Part shown: in pieces, positions 3,839 to 45,242 of the stretch
Position numbering within the stretch: position 1 is the stretch's first letter
How the letters are laid out: each line of letters begins with the position of its first letter
Origin: Clostridiaceae bacterium
GTDB lineage: Bacteria > Bacillota > Clostridia > Peptostreptococcales > T1SED10-28
Reading direction: 5' to 3'
NCBI GenBank assembly: GCA_003553525.1
Contig: PWEO01000089.1
Location: 1-56,060 of the forward strand
Length of the DNA: 56,060 nucleotides
Made by a program: the position numbers and the translations under genes
Notes under the pieces: generated by a model
Database searches by the model: none
Told to the model about the DNA's origin: nothing
Seen by the model: the letters and a program-made list of their open reading frames with translations, nothing else

Positions 3839-4537
3839 CTAAGTTAGTTCCTCCTCATCCCAAATAATACTTTCTACACCCTTGATTTTTTTTAATTCTG
3901 CGTAGCACGCTGATCGTTTAAAATTTTTAGGTGTCCTTATGAAAAAAGTAATCTCCAGGTCTTTTTCAATCTCTTCATCGCTATAACTTTTTTGGTCTAC
4001 AATGATATTTTTAATGTTGATTTGATATTTCCCAAAAATCGTACCGATTTCTCCGACTAAACCCGGACGTCCGACCGCCTTAAATCGAACTTGTGAAAAT
4101 CTTTTTATCTTGTATATTTTACCTTCTAAAGCTTTTAGACCCATCAAGGAAAAAAGAGCAAGAAAAGTAGTAAAAGAAGCTGCTGCATAGTAACCTAGTC
4201 CGATAGCTAATCCGATTCCACCGCTAATCCAAATACTAGCAGCAGTGGTAAGTCCTCGGACATTAGTACCTTCCCGCAAGATAGTTCCCGCTCCTAAGAA
4301 ACCGATCCCACTTACTACTTGTGCTGCTAATCTCGCTGGTTCTCCTCCAGATCCATCAGGACCTAAACCATGAAAACCATAGGCAGATAATATCATTATT
4401 AAGCAAGAGCCTAAAGTAACTAAAATATGAGTACGAAATCCTGCGGGACGGTTACTGATTTCTCTTTCAAAACCGATTACCCCACCCATAAAGGCTGCTA
4501 AAGCCAACCTTAAACCAATTTCCATCGTTCCGATCAT
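3839..4537 (-). CDS. MgtC/SapB family membrane protein
   Basis: This 232-residue protein has an N-terminal MgtC domain (about residues 5-135) with the family signatures GxxIGFEREISNRPAGFRTH and GIGFLGAGTI, four to five membrane helices, and a C-terminal cytosolic ACT-like domain (about residues 150-230). MgtC proteins are linked to growth in low magnesium and to regulation of ATP synthase or acid tolerance in pathogens; the role in this organism is unknown. The start is set by GGAGGG eight bases upstream of ATG 4537. It appears to be a single-gene unit. Confidence 0.85.
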   Translation of the reverse strand: MIGTMEIGLRLALAAFMGGVIGFEREISNRPAGFRTHILVTLGSCLIMILSAYGFHGLGPDGSGGEPARLAAQVVSGIGFLGAGTILREGTNVRGLTTAASIWISGGIGLAIGLGYYAAASFTTFLALFSLMGLKALEGKIYKIKRFSQVRFKAVGRPGLVGEIGTIFGKYQINIKNIIVDQKSYSDEEIEKDLEITFFIRTPKNFKRSACYAELKKIKGVESIIWDEEELT

Positions 4538-13227: not shown

Positions 13228-15651
13228 TTATCCCTTAACCACGATATTATAGATTCTACCGGGAACATAGATCTCTTTTACAATTTGACGGTTTTCCAAA
13301 TGTTCCTTAATCCCTTCTGTTTCCTTGGCAAGTTTTTCTACGATTTCTTTTGATGCCTCCGCCTCGACTTCTACTTTTCCTCGAACTTTACCATTAACTT
13401 GTACAGCAATTTCGATGTACTTATCTACAGTTTTTTCTTCATCCCAAGTAGGCCAGTGTTGTTCGACAATTCCCTCATTGTGCCCTAAAACTTCCCATAA
13501 CTCTTCCGTTATATGAGGTGCTACAGGGTTTAGAAGCATCAATAAAGTTTTAAACTCTGCCTTTGTAACGCTACCAAGATCATAGAATTCATTAATTAGT
13601 GTCATCAGTGCAGCAATACCGGTATTATACTTTAAGTTTTCATAGTCTTCGCTGACTTTCTTTATAGTTTGATGCATTTTCACTTCAAGCTCCTTCGAAA
13701 ATTCGTCACTATCTACCATTATATCTTGAATTTTCCATACCCGATCCAAAAATCTTCGGCATCCCTTGACTCCGTTTTGTGACCAAGGTACGCTTTTTTC
13801 AAAGTCACCGATAAACATTTCGTAGACCCGAAGAGTATCCGCTCCAAACTCCTCCACAATTTCGTCAGGATTTACTACATTCCCCTTGGACTTCGACATT
13901 TTCTCATTATTTTCTCCAAGAATCATCCCATGGGAAGTTCGTTTATAATAAGGCTCTTTTGTCGGTACCACATTGATATCATATAAGAATTTATGCCAGA
14001 ATCTAGAATATAATAAGTGGAGTGTGGTGTGTTCCATCCCACCATTATACCAATCTACAGGCAGCCAGTAGTCCAGTCGCTCTTTAGAAGCTAAGGCATT
14101 ATCATTATTCGGGTCCATGTACCGCAAATAATACCAGGAGGAACCTGCCCACTGTGGCATTGTATCGGTTTCCCGTCTTCCTTCTTTATTACAGGAAGGA
14201 CACATGGTTATTACCCAATCTTTAATATTTGCTAATGGGGACTCGCCATCATCGGTAGGTTCATAATTATCCACTTTTGGAAGTTTAAGTGGAAGATCCT
14301 TTTCAGGAAGTGGAACCCATCCACAGTCATCACAGTAGACCAGAGGGATCGGTTCTCCCCAATACCGTTGTCTAGAAAAAACCCAGTCCCGCAGTTTATA
14401 ATTAACTTTATTCTCTCCAAGTTCTTCCTTTTCAAGCCATTCACTGATTTTGTCGATTCCTTCCTGAGGTTTTAGACCATTAATGAAACCAGAGTTTACT
14501 AGGATTCCTTTATCCACTTCGGTGAAAGCTTCAACAGAAACATCCCCACCTTTTACCACCTCTTTAATGGGAAGTCCAAACTTATTTGCAAACTCCCAGT
14601 CTCGATTATCGTGACCGGGTACTGCCATAATAGCTCCAGTTCCATAACTCATTAATACATAGTCAGAAATCCATACCGTCATTTTTTCCTTCGATGCAGG
14701 ATTAATAGCCTTAATACCTTTTAGCTCAATGCCGGTTTTCTCTTTAACAAGTTCACTACGCTCAAAATCCGACTTTTTCGAAGCTTCATGCTGATAGTGA
14801 TGAACTTCATTAAAGTTTTCTATCTGACTTTTTAGCTTGCTTAGTATCGGATGTTCCGGTGAAATTACCATATAGGTTGCGCCGAAAAGGGTATCCGGTC
14901 TCGTGGTGAATACTTTTAAAACTTCTTCGGATCCCTCAATAAAAAACTTTATTTCCATGCCTTTAGACTTTCCTATCCAATTTTTTTGCTGAGTTTTTAC
15001 CCGTTCAATGTAATCCACTTCATCCAGATCATTAATTAGTCTTTCAGCATACTCCGTAATCTTTAACATCCATTGATTTTTAACTTTTTGAACCACTTCT
15101 CCACCGCAGCGCTCACAGCCCCCCTGTACTACCTCTTCATTGGAAAGTCCAATTTTGCACGAGGTACACCAATTTATAGGGATCTCCTGCTTATAGGCTA
15201 AGCCTTTCTCAAATAGTTTTAGAAAAATCCACTGTGTCCATTTATAGTAACTCGGATCCGTGGTATTTATTTCTCTGGACCAATCAAATGAGAATCCTAA
15301 AGATTGCAACTGTGCTTTAAATCGAGCCACATTTTGTTTAGTAACTTTTTCCGGGTGTATTTTATTCTTTATTGCATAATTTTCCGTAGGTAAGCCAAAA
15401 GCATCCCAACCCATAGGAAATAATACATTATATCCTTGCATCCTTCTTTTTCTAGCCACCACATCCAGGGCTGTATAAGGTCTTGGATGTCCTACATGAA
15501 GCCCCTGTCCCGAAGGATAAGGAAACTCGATCAAAGCATAAAACTTCGGACGATCATCACTTTCTTTTACATGAAATACTTGTTTTTCTTCCCATCGGTC
15601 TTGCCACTTCTTTTCAATAGATTCAGGATGATAACTAGGATTTGCGTTCAT
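13228..15651 (-). CDS. leuS: Leucyl-tRNA synthetase
   Basis: The 807-residue class I synthetase charges tRNA-Leu. The HIGH motif appears as HVGH near residue 41, the catalytic KMSKS as EKMSKSKGN, and between them lies the CP1 editing domain with the T-rich [14 protein letters not shown] segment and the [19 protein letters not shown] editing pocket. A zinc-ribbon-like CTSC ... CERC pair sits near residue 160. Length and order fit bacterial LeuRS. ATG 15651 follows AAAGGAGGAAAAAA; the longer in-frame start was rejected. Expression is controlled by the T-box leader directly upstream. Confidence 0.97.
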
Positions 15652-15699
15652 TTTTTTTCCTCCTTTAATGATTCTAATTTCATGCATATTTCTTTCATC

Positions 15700-15733
15700 A
15701 AAAAAATCTTCCTCTCATTTAGAGACGAAGATT
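15700..15733 (-). terminator. T-box attenuator hairpin of leuS
   Basis: On the minus strand AATCTTCGTCTC pairs with GAGAGGAAGATT and is followed by TTTTTTT. It overlaps the T-box so that antiterminator and terminator are mutually exclusive. Confidence 0.8.
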
Positions 15734-15922
15734 CGCGGTACCACACTAATTGATAAGGATTAATTCACTTATCCACTCTTCGATTAACGGATCGTAACCG
15801 GTCTAACTTAATGTTTTCAGCCAGACTGCTCCTTAGACGAGTTCGACGACTTTGTTTGCCATATTCCACCCTTCATGGCTCTCTGTAAAACAAAGTTACT
15901 GTCTACTACTTCTAATCATCGC
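15700..15922 (-). promoter_or_regulatory. T-box leader (tRNA-Leu sensing riboswitch) of leuS
   Basis: The minus strand holds a T-box core, TGGTACCGCG at 15743-15734, and a stem I region with the AGTAGTAGAC and GGAGCAGTC elements. In the specifier loop, GAACTC places a CTC leucine codon at 15841-15839. The leader ends in a terminator hairpin (15733-15700) in front of leuS. Uncharged tRNA-Leu pairs with the CTC and the T-box bulge and stabilises the antiterminator. The specifier choice is by eye. Confidence 0.88.
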
Positions 15923-15928
15923 ATTTAA

Positions 15929-17098: not shown

Positions 17099-17458
17099 TG
17101 GTGGAGGCGGTGGGAATTGAACCCACGTCCGAAAGCCCTTCACCATCAGCTTCTCCGAGTGCAGTTACTATTTTGAAATTCGCCTTTCAAAACGCCCAGT
17201 AACAGGCTTTAAGATCAGCTAGTCCTAATTGTACAACTTAGCGTCAGGACATCCGCTAAGTCGTTCCCCACATTGGTTGGCGCCTCATCCTAAGCTGTGG
17301 GAACTTAGAAGAGACGGGCTACCTAATAAATTAGGCAGCTAATGCGTAGTTATTGTTATCTGCGTTTATCTTTAGTGCTCAGTTTTTTTACGTGTGAAAG
17401 AGCAAAACACGACTCGCTACTGATGGATACAGACCCCCGTCGAAACCAGTACGCCCCC
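17099..17458 (-). ncRNA. ssrA: Transfer-messenger RNA (tmRNA)
   Basis: The 360-nt RNA starts GGGGGCG (17458-17452), which pairs with the 3' CGCCTCC before the discriminator A and an encoded CCA (17101-17099). The 3' T-arm GGTTCAATTCCC and the 5' ACTGGTTTCGACGGGG are classic one-piece tmRNA features. The tag reading frame is GCA GAT AAC AAT AAC TAC GCA TTA GCT GCC TAA, giving ADNNNYALAA. It rescues stalled ribosomes with SmpB. Its first base is the last base of the smpB stop codon, so it is processed from the smpB transcript. Confidence 0.97.
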
Positions 17459-36367: not shown

Positions 36368-37561
36368 TTAGCAATCCTCCGGAACACCGACAGCATAATC
36401 TGCTTTTTTTAGTACTTCAATGGCTTTTTTTATATTTCCTTCACTTACCATTACCACCGGTCCGGTACAACCCATGCCACTTTCTGCATAGATGTTGTTT
36501 TTCCAGAGTTCATGTACTGCATCTTCCAACTCCATAATATCGATGCCTGATAAGGATCCTGTAACCACTTCTTTTGGTGGTTGTTTAACCTCTTCCTCAT
36601 CATCGGATTTTTTATGGGATTTGGTAAGGGAATCCAGAATATCTTTAAGTCCAGCTTTATTGGCTTTATCGTATTCTTCTTTTATCCTTTGTTCCAGCTT
36701 TCCCTCAACTAGTTCCGCAGCATATTCTAATGCTTTTGCCACAACAGGACTTCCTGAAGCACGAGATAAAATCAAAATATTTTTATCGTATCCTTCACCG
36801 ATTCCAGGCCCATATCCATAACCTAAGGCTTCATAATCTCCGCCGGTATGAAAGGAAGAAAAGATTTTCATAAAGATATTTCCAGTTAAGGTGTCTTGAA
36901 CCATTACATCAGGACTTCCAGCCAATAAGTCGTTCCCACGCATAACAACGCCGCCGTCAGCTCGCATTGACTCAGAGAAATCCATATCATAGCCGTTATT
37001 TACCAGGGTGCTTAAAGCTTTTTCAACTTGTCTTGCACCGTCCACATTTAATACACCGATTTTAGGATTCTTCACACCCGAAGCTTTCGCTGCAATAACG
37101 CCATGAATTGCATTTCGCACCATAGCTTCCGTACGATCCGTTGCCGAAGTTCCCGTAGTTGTAGCTAAATACATCTCCTTACCTTTTCCAGGAGTAATAA
37201 CTTTCCCCACGGTTGATACCCCGATAGGGAAGTTATAATGCATTGTTACACATGCCTGGATTTTCTTCGTAGCTAATAATTCCTCCATGATATTATGCAT
37301 CTCAGATTCATCCTGAGCTTCAATTACCTCTAAGTCGGTATCCATCTTGGGACCTATCAGCAATACATCAAAACTCCCTGATTTTCCTGCAATTTCAGCA
37401 CCTTTAACAAGATTCTCCACTCCATGCTCACTACCTAAGGTTGTAAGACCAACGGTTACTCTTTCACCAAAATTACCAGTCTCCATACCTTTTGCGATGT
37501 CATTAAAAACTTTACCTATTTGCTTTTTTATTTCTATGTGTTGTTCTGTCACTCCATTCAC
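36368..37561 (-). CDS. grdD: Glycine/sarcosine/betaine reductase component C, alpha subunit
   Basis: The 397-residue GrdD works with GrdC to release acetyl phosphate from the carboxymethyl-selenoether bound to GrdA. It has a PlsX-like fold, and the conserved GMGCTGPVVM near the C terminus carries the likely acetyl-accepting cysteine. It follows grdC by 23 bp and is last in the operon. A GTG at 37561 begins the frame, but AAAGG lies too close to it; a GTG three codons later is an alternative start. Confidence 0.93.
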   Translation of the reverse strand: MNGVTEQHIEIKKQIGKVFNDIAKGMETGNFGERVTVGLTTLGSEHGVENLVKGAEIAGKSGSFDVLLIGPKMDTDLEVIEAQDESEMHNIMEELLATKKIQACVTMHYNFPIGVSTVGKVITPGKGKEMYLATTTGTSATDRTEAMVRNAIHGVIAAKASGVKNPKIGVLNVDGARQVEKALSTLVNNGYDMDFSESMRADGGVVMRGNDLLAGSPDVMVQDTLTGNIFMKIFSSFHTGGDYEALGYGYGPGIGEGYDKNILILSRASGSPVVAKALEYAAELVEGKLEQRIKEEYDKANKAGLKDILDSLTKSHKKSDDEEEVKQPPKEVVTGSLSGIDIMELEDAVHELWKNNIYAESGMGCTGPVVMVSEGNIKKAIEVLKKADYAVGVPEDC

Positions 37562-37584: not shown

Positions 37585-39126
37585 TTATTCACCCATTAGG
37601 TTCTTAGCAAAATCCTTCATGGTTTCTGCAATCATGGTTCTGATTTCCTGTTCAGAAACACCGCTACCACTTGTTTCAATTTTTCCTGTATTTTTTTCTA
37701 AAATCACAGAAACACCATCAAACTGATTGGTCATTCTCGCTAAGAAAAGACTTCCTTTTCCTACAATCATTGCTCGGTTTATTTCTCCATTTTTAAAAGC
37801 TTCCAAGGCCGGTCCTATATAAGGTACCCCCGATGGAATATGACCCTGAGTCGGTGCCCAACCGGGCATACCATGTTTGCTACCGAAGGTTGCAACATCC
37901 TTACGTTCCATTTCCTTTCTTTTTACACCAAGGGCTGCAATCATTTTGTAGTTTGATGCAGGCACATCTCCAGCTCCTGCTGGCTTCGTAATGTCGGGAT
38001 TCTGCATTTCTACAGAGTATTTGTCCACATCGGTAATTTTCAGTCCGCCTTTATCCAATGGGGCTGTGATTAGAGCAGTGATAACTGCTTGTGGTGAAGA
38101 TCCGGTTCCCACAGTATGACGTCCCACTAAGTCTGTTCGAATAACCGGGTGCATTCCATCATTTTTCGTTACCAGTACTGCAAAACCTCCCAGTACGTCT
38201 TCAATAATAGGCATATCTTTTTTAACATGATCTTTACCATTCATACCTAGTTTTGCAACAGCACCTCCTGCGGCTACTAAAACATTTTCATAAACCCCCG
38301 CCTGTACTAATGCCGCAGCTTCAATTAATGCATGAGTAGGTGCTGCACAGAAAGCTCTAAGGTCAGATCCCGTAGCATTCACTGCACCGATCATTTCAGC
38401 GATGGCTTTTGCAAAGTTTCCGCCACCTCTTTGGTTAATATCTCCACAAGCTTCTTCTGAACACTCAATTACATAATCAATATCTTCTACATTTATATCA
38501 TTTTTAGCAATCAAATTTTCAGCTGCCAAAACTCCCGATGCCTTTACTGCTAAGTTCTCAAACATAACATGGGCATTTAAGTTGGGATCCGTCTCATGAG
38601 CTCTTTTAACACAACCTACCACTTTATCATTATGGTAGATGGCTTCTGCAGCGAAATTATTGATTGCTTTTTGAATATCAGAAATATCTTCCCCATCTTT
38701 AAGCTTTGCTACCAGTTCATCTTTTACTAAGGGATGATCTTCGAGCTTTTTCTTGACCTCTTTGCTGAAATTACTTTCGAGCATTACCAGATCAAACACA
38801 TCGTTTATTTTAATCAGTCCGATAAATTCATCCTGTGGCATAATTTCTCCAAATTTCCCAAAACGATCAGCACCTTCAACTTGTTTATCATACCAGGGCA
38901 TTTCAAAGTCATTAAGATCTTCAGGCTTTAATGTCCCGATATAGGTTTGATTTGGTGGATACGATACTACTTCTTCAAAGCTTCTTAAATGCTCGGGAAG
39001 TTTCTTTAGATATTCCGATTCCGGATTGGCTCTTCTTTCTCCTGTTTGTGTGGTTCCATTATGGATAATCATATCTGGTGTGTGAACAAGTATATAACCT
39101 GCTCCTTTTAATACTGAATAATTCAC
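37585..39126 (-). CDS. grdC: Glycine/sarcosine/betaine reductase component C, beta subunit
   Basis: The 513-residue GrdC has a thiolase/FabH-like fold and forms the acetyl-phosphate-producing component C with GrdD. Landmarks are VLVHTPDMIIHNGTTQT-like residues near the N terminus, CSEEACGD near residue 223 and RAFCAAPTHALIEAAA. GTG 39126 was chosen because GGAGG lies eight bases upstream and the resulting N terminus (MNYSVLKGAGY) fits family members; the ATG five codons earlier overlaps that site. A 111-bp gap with a hairpin precedes it, after grdB. Confidence 0.93.
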   Translation of the reverse strand: MNYSVLKGAGYILVHTPDMIIHNGTTQTGERRANPESEYLKKLPEHLRSFEEVVSYPPNQTYIGTLKPEDLNDFEMPWYDKQVEGADRFGKFGEIMPQDEFIGLIKINDVFDLVMLESNFSKEVKKKLEDHPLVKDELVAKLKDGEDISDIQKAINNFAAEAIYHNDKVVGCVKRAHETDPNLNAHVMFENLAVKASGVLAAENLIAKNDINVEDIDYVIECSEEACGDINQRGGGNFAKAIAEMIGAVNATGSDLRAFCAAPTHALIEAAALVQAGVYENVLVAAGGAVAKLGMNGKDHVKKDMPIIEDVLGGFAVLVTKNDGMHPVIRTDLVGRHTVGTGSSPQAVITALITAPLDKGGLKITDVDKYSVEMQNPDITKPAGAGDVPASNYKMIAALGVKRKEMERKDVATFGSKHGMPGWAPTQGHIPSGVPYIGPALEAFKNGEINRAMIVGKGSLFLARMTNQFDGVSVILEKNTGKIETSGSGVSEQEIRTMIAETMKDFAKNLMGE

Positions 39127-39162
39127 AACTGTCACCTCCATGAGTTTTCGCAGTTTTTAAAT

Positions 39163-39252: not shown

Positions 39253-40560
39253 TTAGTCAAAGACAGTTTGTCCGCTTACTTCTGTTGAAAGGGCAACTAA
39301 CGACCGTTCGACTATTTTTCGTCTTAGGGCTTTTGCTTCGTCAGCATCTAAGGACGGGCTTCCTAATGGGTGAGGAATGGCAATTGCCGGAACAATTCGA
39401 TTCGCCCCCACTGTTAAGGAAATCGGTACTACTGTACAAATATGAACTACCGGAATTCCGGCTCGTTCAATTTCTTTAACCATCGTTGCACCGCAACGTG
39501 TACAGGTGCCTCAGGTGGAGGTTAATATAACAGCATCCACTCCGTCTTTAATTAGCTCTTGAGAGAACTCTTCAGCAAAAGCTTTGGAGCTTGCAACAGA
39601 GGTTCCGTTTCCAGTTGTACTGTAGAAATATCGATGAAGTTCTTTAATTTTGCCTTCAGTCTCAAGGTCTCTTAGTACGTCTACGGGCAACACGCAGTCT
39701 GCATCCGCATTGGCATAGGGGGGATCATATCCACCGTGGGCGGTTTCATGACTGGCCTCTAAAAGATCGCCCAGATCTGCAATATCATACTTGCCATATT
39801 TAGAAGCACTTGAGGATTCTATTCTGTCAGGGTTTCCTTTTGGAACAATTCCTCCAGAAGTTACCAAGGCAATCTTTGCTTTTGAAATGTCTTTTACCGG
39901 AGGTAATGGATCAACACGATCAAAATTCGGCATGGGATATTCTGTCGTAAAAGCTTCTCCTGACATTTTCTTCATAAGCATATCAACTGCTCTTTTCGAA
40001 CCTCTTGTTTCATGAAAATAATTCTTTCTTATCCCCATAGGGATATAGTTATCCTCTTCAGGACTTCCAATTTCTTCACCATTTAGCTTCTTAATCGCTA
40101 AGCTTGCCATTAAAGGGATCGCTTTTCTCATTTTTGCTGCAGAATTTCCGGTTTCAATAATATGCACGGTCTTCTTAAACATATCTGCACCCGGGTTTTC
40201 AGGATACATTCCAGTCATACTCGGAATATTTAATTCGCTTTTAACGGCATCAGCAATCGTTCCACAAGCAACACCATAACGTCCTGCATTAAATGCGGGA
40301 CCTGCAATGAATAGGTCTGCGTCATACTTCTTCACTAGTTCCAAAACTTCAGTTTTAGCTTCTTCAAGGTTTTCATTGAAGTAAGAGTCTCCACATATAA
40401 TGGTTGCAACAATTTCTCCTTCATTTTGCAATGCCGATTGCAGGGCCATACCAGGACCTACAACTCCTTCTCTCACTTCAGGTTTCATGTCTGCTTTTTC
40501 TTCCCCACCGATTCCGCCAAAAAACTGATTAATATAATGGACAATTCTTTTTTTACTCAT
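39253..40560 (-). CDS. grdB: Glycine reductase component B gamma subunit, selenoprotein
   Basis: The 435-residue protein includes one selenocysteine encoded by TGA at 39513-39511 (residue 350). The frame continues in register as T-S-T-U-G-T-C-T-R-C-G-A-T, giving the family's UxxCxxC redox motif, and both halves are typical GrdB. With GrdE it binds glycine as a Schiff base and transfers the carboxymethyl group to the selenol of GrdA. The gene lies 35 bp after grdA. A naive caller reports it as two ORFs, of 349 and 76 residues. Confidence 0.96.
39488..39513 (-). promoter_or_regulatory. UGA codon and SECIS-like hairpin in grdB
   Basis: Directly after the TGA (39513-39511) the minus strand can pair GCACC with GGTGC around a 12-base loop, within the coding sequence. 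Bacterial SECIS elements sit in exactly this position and bind SelB. The fold is judged by eye. Confidence 0.5.
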
Positions 40561-40595: not shown

Positions 40596-41072
40596 CTAAT
40601 CATTAAATTTACCAAATTCCCCACGAATTTCTTCCATTTCTTCAATGATCTCATCGACTTCTAAAACCATTTCCATCATTCCGATTTGATCGTCATAAAC
40701 ATTTTCATCAACTGCACTTTTAAAAGTTTCTTCTACAGCATGAAATACTCTTAGTCCCAACTGGACTCCTGCTAATGGACCTGCAAAGGTTGGATCTCCG
40801 TTAGTTACGGTTTCTGCGGCTAATCCGGCAGCTTCTGCTTCTGCTGCTCCGATTACGATAACCATATTCTCCGCACCGTGTTTTTCCGTAAGATCTTTAA
40901 CTCTTTGCTGATTTTCTAAATCCATAGCACCTGCAGCCGTTCAGACAAAACACTCAGTGGAAGAATATACCACTTCAGCGTCAGTGCTTTTTAAGCATTC
41001 TTCGATAGCCGGTCCTGGAATACCATCTCTATCGCCAATGATGATGATTTTCTTTCCATCAAATACTGACAT
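40596..41072 (-). CDS. grdA: Glycine/sarcosine/betaine reductase complex selenoprotein A
   Basis: The 158-residue selenoprotein carries the reducing centre C41-F-V-U44, with U encoded by TGA at 40943-40941, followed by [11 protein letters not shown], the family signature. It accepts the carboxymethyl group from component B and is reduced through thioredoxin. ATG 41072 follows AGAGGATGGTAAAT. ORF callers lose the first 44 codons and start at M49. It lies between grdE and grdB, and a possible internal promoter precedes it. Confidence 0.97.
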
Positions 41073-41186: not shown

Positions 41187-42473
41187 TTAGTACCCTTTGC
41201 TGGTTAATTTCACAAATCCGGTCTCATTGGTAGCTCCGGTGATTGCTTGGATTTCCACTTCAATACTTCCGTCAGCTCGAAGACTTCCATCAAATCCTCC
41301 CGCAATGGAATCCACATAATCCGTCATCCCAATGATTTTTTTCATCGGTGGAAGAAGAATTACTTCATTTGCATTGCCGTTGGTAATTACTGCGTCAGCT
41401 TTAGGATCAGCATCAGCTAAGGACTGTGATGCTCCATCTCTTCCGGCGTATTCATCGGTTACAATTACAGTTTTGATATTTTTCTCTTCGATCTTCTTAC
41501 AGTTCATAATTAAATCTGTATCCGGATTTCCGAATCCTTCCTGGGAAACGATTACTCCGTCCAGTCCTAAGAATTCCGTAAGCTTCGCAGTCCAGTCTGA
41601 GGATCGCTCCTTATCTGCAAGATATACATTTTCATTTGTTATGATTACACCTACAAAGTTGATCTCTTTTCCGTGTTTTTCATATAGATCTTCTATAATC
41701 CCATTGTTTAAGTGTACGTAGGTCGGATTCTTATCACAAGCTGAAACACAGTTACCACTTACAATAGCGCCGTCCATAATCTCAGTCGGATATAAAAGCG
41801 TCGGTACGATCTTTTTCGCGTCCACTCCATATACATAAGTATCATGAAGAAGACCTTGCGTCTGAAGCATATACACATATCCGATTTTCGGCAGATCAGG
41901 ATATTTCTTTACAGAGTCTAATAATGGTTCCGTTTCATATTCTTGAATTTCATCAGCCTCAAGTTCTCTTGCAACTTCCCCTAGATATCGGGCAGCTTTA
42001 AATCCGATCATTCGTACTGCAGATTCGTGATCATATTGCTTAACCCCTTCGATAGGATGTGCCACTACCACAATATTATGGGTTTTTGAAAATGGAGTGT
42101 ACTCTGCTCCTGGACCGGACATATCGATGATCCCTTCTTGAAATCCTACGATCTTTCCGGCAGTTACCACTGCTACATTTTTCAGTGCGTGGGTTGTACC
42201 GCTTCCTACAGTTTGCACTTTACTTAACATTCCCGGAAAAATCCCTCCCGGTCCATCAACTTTTACCCGAGGTTCAATCACATCTTTTACCGGTGTAATA
42301 CGCACTTCATCTCCGGGATGAGTAATGTCAATTTCAATAGACTCAATATGCTCGTCACCGCCGATGGCCTCCAACATCTCCTCTTTGTTAACAAAAAGGG
42401 TCTTGTTTTCAACCTTTGTAACCTCTCCAAACTTCACATCATCAATAAAAATTTTGCCTAACTTCAGCTTCAA
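41187..42473 (-). CDS. grdE: Glycine reductase component B proprotein (alpha and beta subunits)
   Basis: The 428-residue precursor is cleaved at an Asn-Cys bond to make two subunits, one with a pyruvoyl-type carbonyl that binds glycine. Cys242, in SGNCVSACDKNP, matches the cleavage position described for GrdE of glycine-fermenting Clostridia. TTG 42473 was chosen because GGGAGG lies eight bases upstream and the N terminus (MKLKLGKIFIDDV) matches known members; a GTG three codons earlier overlaps that site. It follows trxA by 62 bp. Confidence 0.95.
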   Translation of the reverse strand: MKLKLGKIFIDDVKFGEVTKVENKTLFVNKEEMLEAIGGDEHIESIEIDITHPGDEVRITPVKDVIEPRVKVDGPGGIFPGMLSKVQTVGSGTTHALKNVAVVTAGKIVGFQEGIIDMSGPGAEYTPFSKTHNIVVVAHPIEGVKQYDHESAVRMIGFKAARYLGEVARELEADEIQEYETEPLLDSVKKYPDLPKIGYVYMLQTQGLLHDTYVYGVDAKKIVPTLLYPTEIMDGAIVSGNCVSACDKNPTYVHLNNGIIEDLYEKHGKEINFVGVIITNENVYLADKERSSDWTAKLTEFLGLDGVIVSQEGFGNPDTDLIMNCKKIEEKNIKTVIVTDEYAGRDGASQSLADADPKADAVITNGNANEVILLPPMKKIIGMTDYVDSIAGGFDGSLRADGSIEVEIQAITGATNETGFVKLTSKGY

Positions 42474-42535
42474 AACCTTCACCTCCCTTTTTAATTACAG
42501 GCCCGGAAGACAGCTCTTAACAGGCCTGCTAACCT

Positions 42536-42853
42536 CTACACAAACTTTTTAATCATGGCTTCTACATTTTCCTTTGAAGCTTGTTCCTTCGTTACTTCTT
42601 CTTTTTTTTCTCCACCTTGATAAATGGCGATGGTAGGTAGTCCTAAAACTTTTTGTTTAATAGCCAGTCTTCTGGCTTTTGTGGTGTCAAGCTTAACAAA
42701 TTTGATTTGTTCTCCATAAACTTCTTCTAACGCTTCGATATCCGGCATTAAAGCTTTGCATGGTTCACAACCTTCACTCCAGAAATCAACTAAAACTGCT
42801 TTTTCTTCTTGTAATACTTCTTCTTCGAAATTACTCTTATCTACAGCTAGCAT
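42536..42853 (-). CDS. trxA: Thioredoxin of the glycine reductase system
   Basis: The 105-residue thioredoxin has the active site C29-E-P-C32 instead of the usual CGPC, a variation typical of the thioredoxins encoded in grd operons. The cis-proline loop GLPTIAIY is normal. It passes electrons from TrxB to the oxidised selenoprotein A. TTAAGGAGGTGAATTAA precedes the ATG. Confidence 0.94.
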   Translation of the reverse strand: MLAVDKSNFEEEVLQEEKAVLVDFWSEGCEPCKALMPDIEALEEVYGEQIKFVKLDTTKARRLAIKQKVLGLPTIAIYQGGEKKEEVTKEQASKENVEAMIKKFV

Positions 42854-42935: not shown

Positions 42936-43883
42936 TTACTCTTCAAAAGCATGTTCTATATATTTTTCTGCTTGAATAGCGGCTATTGCTCCGTCTCCAA
43001 CGGCTGTTGCTACTTGCCTTAGGGTCTTTTCCCGAACATCTCCCGCCGCGAAAACTCCTGGTAAGTCAGTATGCATATTATCATTAGTGATAATATAACC
43101 GGCTTTTGATAAGTTTAATTTTTCTTTAAACAGTTCCGTTTGAGGTATATACCCTACAAACACAAAGATTCCAAAAGTTCCATCTTCCTCATCCGCATGG
43201 TGTTCGGTTACTTCTCCGGAGTTGAGATTTTCTAGTACTAAGGATTCTACCATACCGTCCCCTTTAATTTCTTTTACCTGAGAATTCCAGATAAAGTGGA
43301 TTTTTTTATTCTTAAATGCTTTTTCCTGTATCGACTTCGCCGCTTTAAGTTCATCTCGACGATGTACAATGGTAACTTTTCGCGCAAATTTTGATAAGTG
43401 AATCGCTTCTTCTACTGCAGAATCTCCTCCACCGATTACAAATACTTCGAAATCACTGAAAAAATCGGCATCACAAGTTGCACAGTAGGAAACACCTTTA
43501 CCGGTTAACTCATCTTCACCGGGAGCCCCGATTTTTCTTGGAGAAGCGCCGGTTGCAATAATAACCGATTTGGCCTTGTAGGTTCCTTTATCTCCCGTAA
43601 GCACTTTAATCTTGTCTTCCAATTTTACTTCCTTAATGTTGTCTTTTTCGATTTCTGCACCAAACTCTTTGCACTGGGCTACCATTCTTGCAACCAGGTC
43701 CGGCCCGGTGGCATTTTCAATTGAGCCGGGATAGTTGGCAACCTCATCAGTTGTGGCAATTTGTCCCCCAGGCGAATCTTTTTCCAATACTAAGGTGGAC
43801 ATTCTGTCCCGAGCTGCATATAGTCCAGCCGTTAAACCTGATGGTCCTGCTCCGATAATAATGACGTCGTAAATTTTTTCCAT
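42936..43883 (-). CDS. trxB: Thioredoxin reductase of the glycine reductase system
   Basis: The 315-residue flavoprotein has the FAD motif GAGPSGLTAG, the redox pair C134-A-T-C137, the second nucleotide motif GGGDSAVEEA and the C-terminal FAD motif AAGDVREKTLRQVATAVGDG. The HRR-DE stretch after the second motif points to NADPH use. ATG 43883 follows AAGGGGTGAAATT, so the 15-codon extension was dropped. It lies between grdX and trxA. Confidence 0.95.
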   Translation of the reverse strand: MEKIYDVIIIGAGPSGLTAGLYAARDRMSTLVLEKDSPGGQIATTDEVANYPGSIENATGPDLVARMVAQCKEFGAEIEKDNIKEVKLEDKIKVLTGDKGTYKAKSVIIATGASPRKIGAPGEDELTGKGVSYCATCDADFFSDFEVFVIGGGDSAVEEAIHLSKFARKVTIVHRRDELKAAKSIQEKAFKNKKIHFIWNSQVKEIKGDGMVESLVLENLNSGEVTEHHADEEDGTFGIFVFVGYIPQTELFKEKLNLSKAGYIITNDNMHTDLPGVFAAGDVREKTLRQVATAVGDGAIAAIQAEKYIEHAFEE

Positions 43884-43941
43884 AATTTCACCCCTTGATT
43901 TAGTTTTAATATTTATATACTCAAGCATGTGCTTGATAAAT

Positions 43942-44325
43942 CTACTTGTTAGCTGATTCTAGTGCTCCTTTAATCAAATGATAATCAATTTCCTGAAAAT
44001 CTGCTAATAAATCCTTCCGAAGCCCTTGGGTTCGGTCCCGAATCGAGAAAAATTTCTTCGTGGTTTCAATACTATCTTCAATCATAGTAACGGATCGGTA
44101 ATCTAATGCTTTAGGCTTGTTTGTAACCAACAAGCTTTTATACGGGGTCTCATTGGGTTTGATACTTCCTGAAAGAGGATGGGTCAAGAGTTCATGACCT
44201 TTATGGATTTCACCCCTGGCATAACACAAAACTTCCAAGTAGCTCTTCTCAAGAAAAACAAGTGCCGTTCTGTCTTGATATTTATCTTTTACTAAAGGAT
44301 TGTTGGTAATAAGAATATGGTCCAT
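43942..44325 (-). CDS. grdX: GrdX family protein
   Basis: The 127-residue GrdX is a small cytosolic protein found at the start of glycine reductase operons; its function is unknown. It begins MDHILITNNPLV and has no membrane segment. ATGGAGGGTCATT precedes the ATG. It is the first gene after the glycine riboswitch, so it is the immediate target of the expression platform. Confidence 0.88.
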   Translation of the reverse strand: MDHILITNNPLVKDKYQDRTALVFLEKSYLEVLCYARGEIHKGHELLTHPLSGSIKPNETPYKSLLVTNKPKALDYRSVTMIEDSIETTKKFFSIRDRTQGLRKDLLADFQEIDYHLIKGALESANK

Positions 44326-44373
44326 AATGACCCTCCATTTTTCCCCATGCGAGAATTTTCTTTCAATTTAAGC

Positions 44374-44425
44374 AAACAAAAACAGAGCAGTTATGACAAC
44401 TCCCGGTTGCATAATCTACTCTGTA
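44374..44425 (-). terminator. Expression-platform terminator of the glycine riboswitch
   Basis: ACAGAG/CTCTGT and TTATG/CATAA with AAC/GTT form a long interrupted hairpin on the minus strand, followed by TTTTTGTTTG. It lies between aptamer 2 and grdX, where glycine binding would decide whether it forms. Confidence 0.7.
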
Positions 44426-44428
44426 TGA

Positions 44429-44604
44429 TTTACCTGAGAGTTTATTCCCAAAAGTTCTTTGGGCTTTGCTCCTTCGGTGCACTTTTCGTGCTTTCCAGAG
44501 AACTGTCCAAGTACGGTCCTTTTGCCTGAGAGATTCACTAAAAAATGGGCTTTTTTAGTTTGTTCCTTCGGCGCCCGGGTATTAACGCTCCGGGTCTCTC
44601 CCAC
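44429..44604 (-). promoter_or_regulatory. Tandem glycine riboswitch
   Basis: Two glycine aptamers lie in series on the minus strand. Aptamer 1 (about 44604-44512) has GGGAGAGACC, GCGCCGAAGGA and CTCTCAGGCAAAAGGACC. Aptamer 2 (about 44503-44429) has TTCTCTGGAAAG, GCACCGAAGGAGCAA and AAACTCTCAGGTAA. These are the conserved glycine-binding cores. The linker is about eight bases. Induction of the grd operon when glycine is plentiful is the expected outcome. Boundaries are approximate. Confidence 0.95.
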
Positions 44605-44648
44605 ACTCTTCATCCAGTGTTCTGCTATGAAATTGTTACTTTAATGAC

Positions 44649-44677
44649 ATTATATTATAGATATTTTAAAAGAGCAA
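44649..44677 (-). promoter_or_regulatory. Promoter of the glycine reductase operon
   Basis: TTGCTC (44677-44672) and TATAAT (44654-44649) on the minus strand are 17 bp apart, placing the start of transcription about 40 bp ahead of aptamer 1. Confidence 0.65.
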
Positions 44678-44747: not shown

Positions 44748-45242
44748 TTAAAATTCGGAATCACTTTTAGACATATGAGGAAAATCCCATTGTCTTAACA
44801 CCTCATAAATTACAACGGCGCAAGCATTGGATAGATTTAAAGACCTTGCATTTTCAATTTGCATCATGGGAATGGTAATATTGGTTTCCCGATGCTCCTT
44901 TAATATTTTCTCTGGTATCCCTTTGCTTTCTTTCCCGAACATTATGAAAACCTCTTTATAGCTTTTATAGTTCACATCACAATATAGTCGGTGTGTTTTT
45001 GTCGTTGCATAAAAAACAGTTTTATCATAATGTTGGTCTAAAAATTCTTGATAGTTATTATAATAATGAAGCTTTAAAGAACTCCAATAGTCAAGCCCTG
45101 CTCTTTTTACCGCTTTTTCACTTAAAGAAAATTTAATGGGTCCGATAATGTGCAGTATTGTATCGGTCACCACACAAGTTCTGGCAATATTTCCTGTGTT
45201 TTGAGGAATTTCTGGTTCTAATAGCACGATGTTTAGCGACAT
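44748..45242 (-). CDS. trmL: tRNA (cytidine(34)-2'-O)-methyltransferase
   Basis: The 164-residue SPOUT methyltransferase modifies the wobble base of tRNA-Leu. It has EPEIPQNTGNIARTC at the start, the FGKESKGIPE loop, and the trefoil-knot motif IENARSLNLSNACAVVIYE at the end. AAGGAGATGCAAC precedes the ATG. It is upstream of the grd promoter with no visible terminator between, so slight read-through is possible. Confidence 0.93.
   Translation of the reverse strand: MSLNIVLLEPEIPQNTGNIARTCVVTDTILHIIGPIKFSLSEKAVKRAGLDYWSSLKLHYYNNYQEFLDQHYDKTVFYATTKTHRLYCDVNYKSYKEVFIMFGKESKGIPEKILKEHRETNITIPMMQIENARSLNLSNACAVVIYEVLRQWDFPHMSKSDSEF

Follow-up and report, generated by a model that had tools for sequence, protein, structure and literature searches.

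Results

The glycine reductase operon and its leader

The window, a stretch of 56,060 nucleotides from a Clostridiaceae bacterium (assembly GCA_003553525.1, contig PWEO01000089.1) whose closest relative among sequenced genomes is a MAG from sediment, carries on its minus strand a complete glycine reductase operon in the order grdX-trxB-trxA-grdE-grdA-grdB-grdC-grdD. The first gene, grdX (43942-44325), matches the GrdX model NF038093 with 131.2 bits (cut-off 40) and is followed by the thioredoxin reductase gene trxB (42936-43928; TIGR01292, 381 against 343 bits), the clostridial thioredoxin gene trxA (42536-42853; NF047697, 162 against 140 bits) and grdE, encoding the component B proprotein (41187-42482), a member of the GrdG/GrdE family that misses the cut-off for the sarcosine GrdG (654 against 780). 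Two selenoprotein genes come next: grdA (40596-41072), whose product reaches 268.9 bits (NF040748, cut-off 130) when its in-frame TGA is read as U, and grdB (39253-40560), with an in-frame TGA at codon 350 and a SECIS element (RF01990; 39510-39473, minus strand) on the 3' side of that codon. The beta and alpha subunits of component C are encoded by grdC (37585-39141; NF040746, 832.6 bits, cut-off 450) and grdD (36368-37561; NF040747, 601.5 bits, cut-off 350), respectively. Read through its TGA, GrdB passes the glycine reductase equivalog TIGR01917 (733.5 bits, cut-off 602); identities as sarcosine reductase (731.8 against 800 bits) and betaine reductase (564 against 775 bits) were rejected on the NCBIfam cut-offs.

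The interval from trmL to grdX contains a leader RNA of about 320 nt on the minus strand, with a minimum free energy well below that of shuffled sequences (z = -4.0). It is preceded by a putative sigma-A promoter, TTGCTC-N17-TATAAT (44649-44677, minus strand), which an earlier note, made from the sequence alone, had claimed. The -10 hexamer is perfect, but the -35 hexamer has only three of six consensus matches and is too weak for the rule of the consensus promoter scan, which did not list the element. In the sister genome L036, the closest relative (its GrdX is 78% identical), both hexamers and the 17-nt spacer are identical, and we therefore judge the promoter plausible.

Two glycine aptamers joined by a kink-turn

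A covariance-model search with the Rfam glycine riboswitch family (RF00504, curated cut-off 32 bits) returned two matches above the cut-off on the minus strand of the leader, in agreement with the two aptamers originally proposed. Aptamer 1 (44504-44613) is well conserved, with a score of 67.5 bits (E = 6e-12, cmscan) and the canonical GGGAGAGACC core. Aptamer 2 (44411-44508) qualifies more weakly, with 43.0 bits in a whole-genome search and 34.8 bits in cmscan (over 44502-44417), and has CUGGAAAGC where CUGGAGAG is expected, while retaining the CUCUCAGG and ACCGAAGG segments. On account of this replacement and the weak score, aptamer 2 might bind glycine poorly. The two aptamers stand in tandem, and their full-model matches share five flank bases.

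The linker between the two P1 helices, GGACAGUU (44508-44501), has the length of about eight bases that had been read from the sequence. It carries the 3' strand (GA-CAGU) of a kink-turn helix, P0, whose 5' strand (ACUG-GAU-GA) lies in the leader at 44610-44618, and this helix is supported by covariation across relatives. Among 27 grdX leaders, 102 of 108 P0 cells are paired, against 80.4 expected from partner shuffles (none of 10,000 reached 102), a statistic that ignores the kinship of the loci and for which the register was set by eye at the GA conserved in both strands. With duplicates removed, 47 pairs remain against 36.3 expected. The compensatory changes (ACUG/CAGU, UCAG/CUGA, ACGG/CCGU and GCGG/CCGC) include plain double changes.

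The second aptamer shares a strand with the terminator

The expression platform consists of an intrinsic terminator (44372-44424, minus strand) in which a hairpin stem (44424-44382) is followed by the U-tract UUUUUGUUUG. It had been placed at 44374-44425, which is correct to within a few bases, and 'directly' before grdX, a distance that amounts to 56 nt from the ATG. The 3' strand of aptamer-2 P1 (CAGAG, 44423-44419), which can pair either with CUCUG (44500-44496) or within the terminator, lies wholly inside the 5' arm of the terminator (44424-44416), at its base, so that P1 and the terminator are mutually exclusive. The predicted energy of the terminator fold is -45.3 kcal/mol, compared to -32.4 kcal/mol with P1 enforced, in calculations that omit tertiary contacts and co-transcriptional timing, and the unliganded RNA is therefore predicted to terminate. 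It follows from this preference and from the exclusivity of the two helices that glycine would have to lock P1 before the 3' arm of the terminator is made. The fusion of P1 and terminator is conserved in L036 and in most related grdX leaders.

Glycine riboswitches at other grdX loci

Of 291 genomes from the class, 35 encode GrdX, and a scan of 30 GrdX loci detected glycine aptamers at the majority. We also took the 40 loci from public genomes whose GrdX matched best. In 28 of these a glycine riboswitch lies a short distance upstream of grdX on its own strand, 22 times as a tandem and six times with a match to aptamer 1 only; the remaining 12 showed none over 1.5 kb, and some of these grdX genes may be internal to the operon or lie at contig ends. 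(A match pair on G292:C36, which is not the contig of locus L037, C75, was left out of the counts.) The grdX leaders of Alkaliphilus, Natronincola, Geosporobacter, Anaerovirgula, Thermotalea and others resemble that of the window in order, spacing and P1/terminator fusion, but differ in their loop sequences, and a few have aptamer 1 alone. The exact aptamer spacing of the window recurs in 43 of 50 tandem pairs from the genomes of the 40 loci. As most related leaders also share the P1/terminator fusion, the linker and platform, which the earlier note had described as unusually compact, are ordinary.

Other RNA elements were recognized in the genome that contains the window. A second tandem glycine riboswitch (L005, 4155-4420; G000:C158), with nearly the same spacing (its two matches overlap by 4), stands before a gene starting at 4487 whose product, a putative transporter, is a membrane protein of the PTS_EIIC_2 family (PF13303, 182 bits). 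In this riboswitch too, one strand is common to aptamer-2 P1 and the terminator (AAAGGACAGAGAACAAUAG...UUUUCUGUCCUUUUUUU). Such an anatomy would make it an ON switch of the putative transporter, whereas glycine symporters are reported to have OFF switches. Two loci encoding 64% identical relatives of the PTS_EIIC_2 protein (L120 and L121) gave no riboswitch match. Unlike the reductase operon, the glycine cleavage operon of this genome (gcvT-gcvH-gcvPA-gcvPB-lpd; L118, 3864-4133; G000:C25) has no glycine aptamer upstream. Elsewhere on the minus strand of the window are a T-box leader (15718-15928, 125 bits), upstream of an 819-aa ORF (13228-15687), and a tmRNA (17099-17458, 203 bits).

Unequal conservation of the two aptamers

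Aptamer 1 outscores aptamer 2 in all 22 grd tandems (means of 62.5 and 45.5 bits), as compared to 16 of 28 other tandems from the same genomes, taken irrespective of the genes that they control (Fisher p = 0.0004, the loci not being independent). A 2019 study of glycine riboswitches reported conservation of aptamer 1 in those controlling gcv and of aptamer 2 in those controlling transporters (PMC6944388); the reductase context is absent from its text. Our comparison of scores suggests that the aptamer-1 bias reported for gcv extends to grd, a modest and small extension.

Discussion

The operon, both aptamers, P0 and the strand common to P1 and the terminator, all read directly from the DNA, point to a standard-type tandem glycine riboswitch through which the glycine reductase operon is regulated by attenuation of transcription, a reading to which we assign a probability of roughly 0.93. 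Without glycine, the terminator hairpin would capture the CAGAG strand of aptamer-2 P1 and transcription would halt at the U-tract before grdX. With glycine, the two aptamers would dock together, with the kink-turn P0 keeping them in place, and aptamer-2 P1 would be locked; the terminator would then be blocked and the genes from grdX through trxB, trxA, grdE, grdA, grdB and grdC to grdD transcribed, which we infer to occur as a single transcript. The glycine-ON polarity, also claimed in the earlier note, is predicted from, and supported by, the P1/terminator overlap, and when glycine is plentiful the glycine reductase genes are most likely turned on.

The foremost alternative is that aptamer 2 is a decaying 'ghost' which no longer binds glycine and keeps only P1 and the docking contacts, so that aptamer 1 alone reads the switch. 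The invariable lead of aptamer 1 in the grd tandems, the leaders that retain aptamer 1 only and the published model of aptamer-2 degradation in the gcv context (PMC6944388) are in its favour, and the aptamer 2 of the window is among the weaker ones. Yet this aptamer still passes the Rfam cut-off with both retained segments intact, and covariance scores are no measure of affinity; we consider such a loss of binding unlikely. Far less probable is that the hairpin is the plain terminator of trmL (44748-45242), which lies upstream on the same strand, and that the aptamers act otherwise, for instance on translation: the stem is built from aptamer-2 P1, here and in most related leaders, and a promoter-like sequence conserved in L036 precedes the leader. 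Membership of the variant glycine-GGAnGA class (RF03166), perhaps for a ligand other than glycine, is hardly credible, as the tandem model, while aligning over its full length, scores 86.5 bits against a curated cut-off of 110 and was rejected, aptamer 1 fits RF00504 with its canonical core, and the operon degrades glycine.

The attenuation that we favour has close precedents. The tandem glycine riboswitch of Bacillus subtilis is an ON switch that acts via a terminator and requires the kink-turn (PMC5666159); this gcvT riboswitch shares with the window the tandem aptamers, the kink-turn leader-linker, the transcription terminator and the ON architecture, but governs glycine cleavage rather than the reductase. 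The grd operon of Clostridioides difficile (CD2357-48) includes trxA3/trxB3, likewise has an upstream glycine riboswitch, and shows induction by glycine (PMC11477304, PMC10880999), a likeness to a different organism drawn from published descriptions of the operon. The earlier note was right that a reductase is guarded here in place of the usual gcv genes, but this is no oddity, given C. difficile and the 28 of 40 loci described above.

Whether regulatory context (catabolism or transport) sets which aptamer survives could be tested with the aptamer-1 bias of the grd riboswitches. Tentatively, these riboswitches may be coming to depend on aptamer 1 while aptamer 2 serves mainly for docking and coupling to the terminator, and the window would represent an intermediate of this decay, a possibility that we consider well short of probable. 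Induction by glycine of its own reductive fermentation, already known from C. difficile, fits the predicted switch at this locus, which lends weight to the idea that clostridia in general may place this energy-yielding reductive pathway under direct control by glycine.
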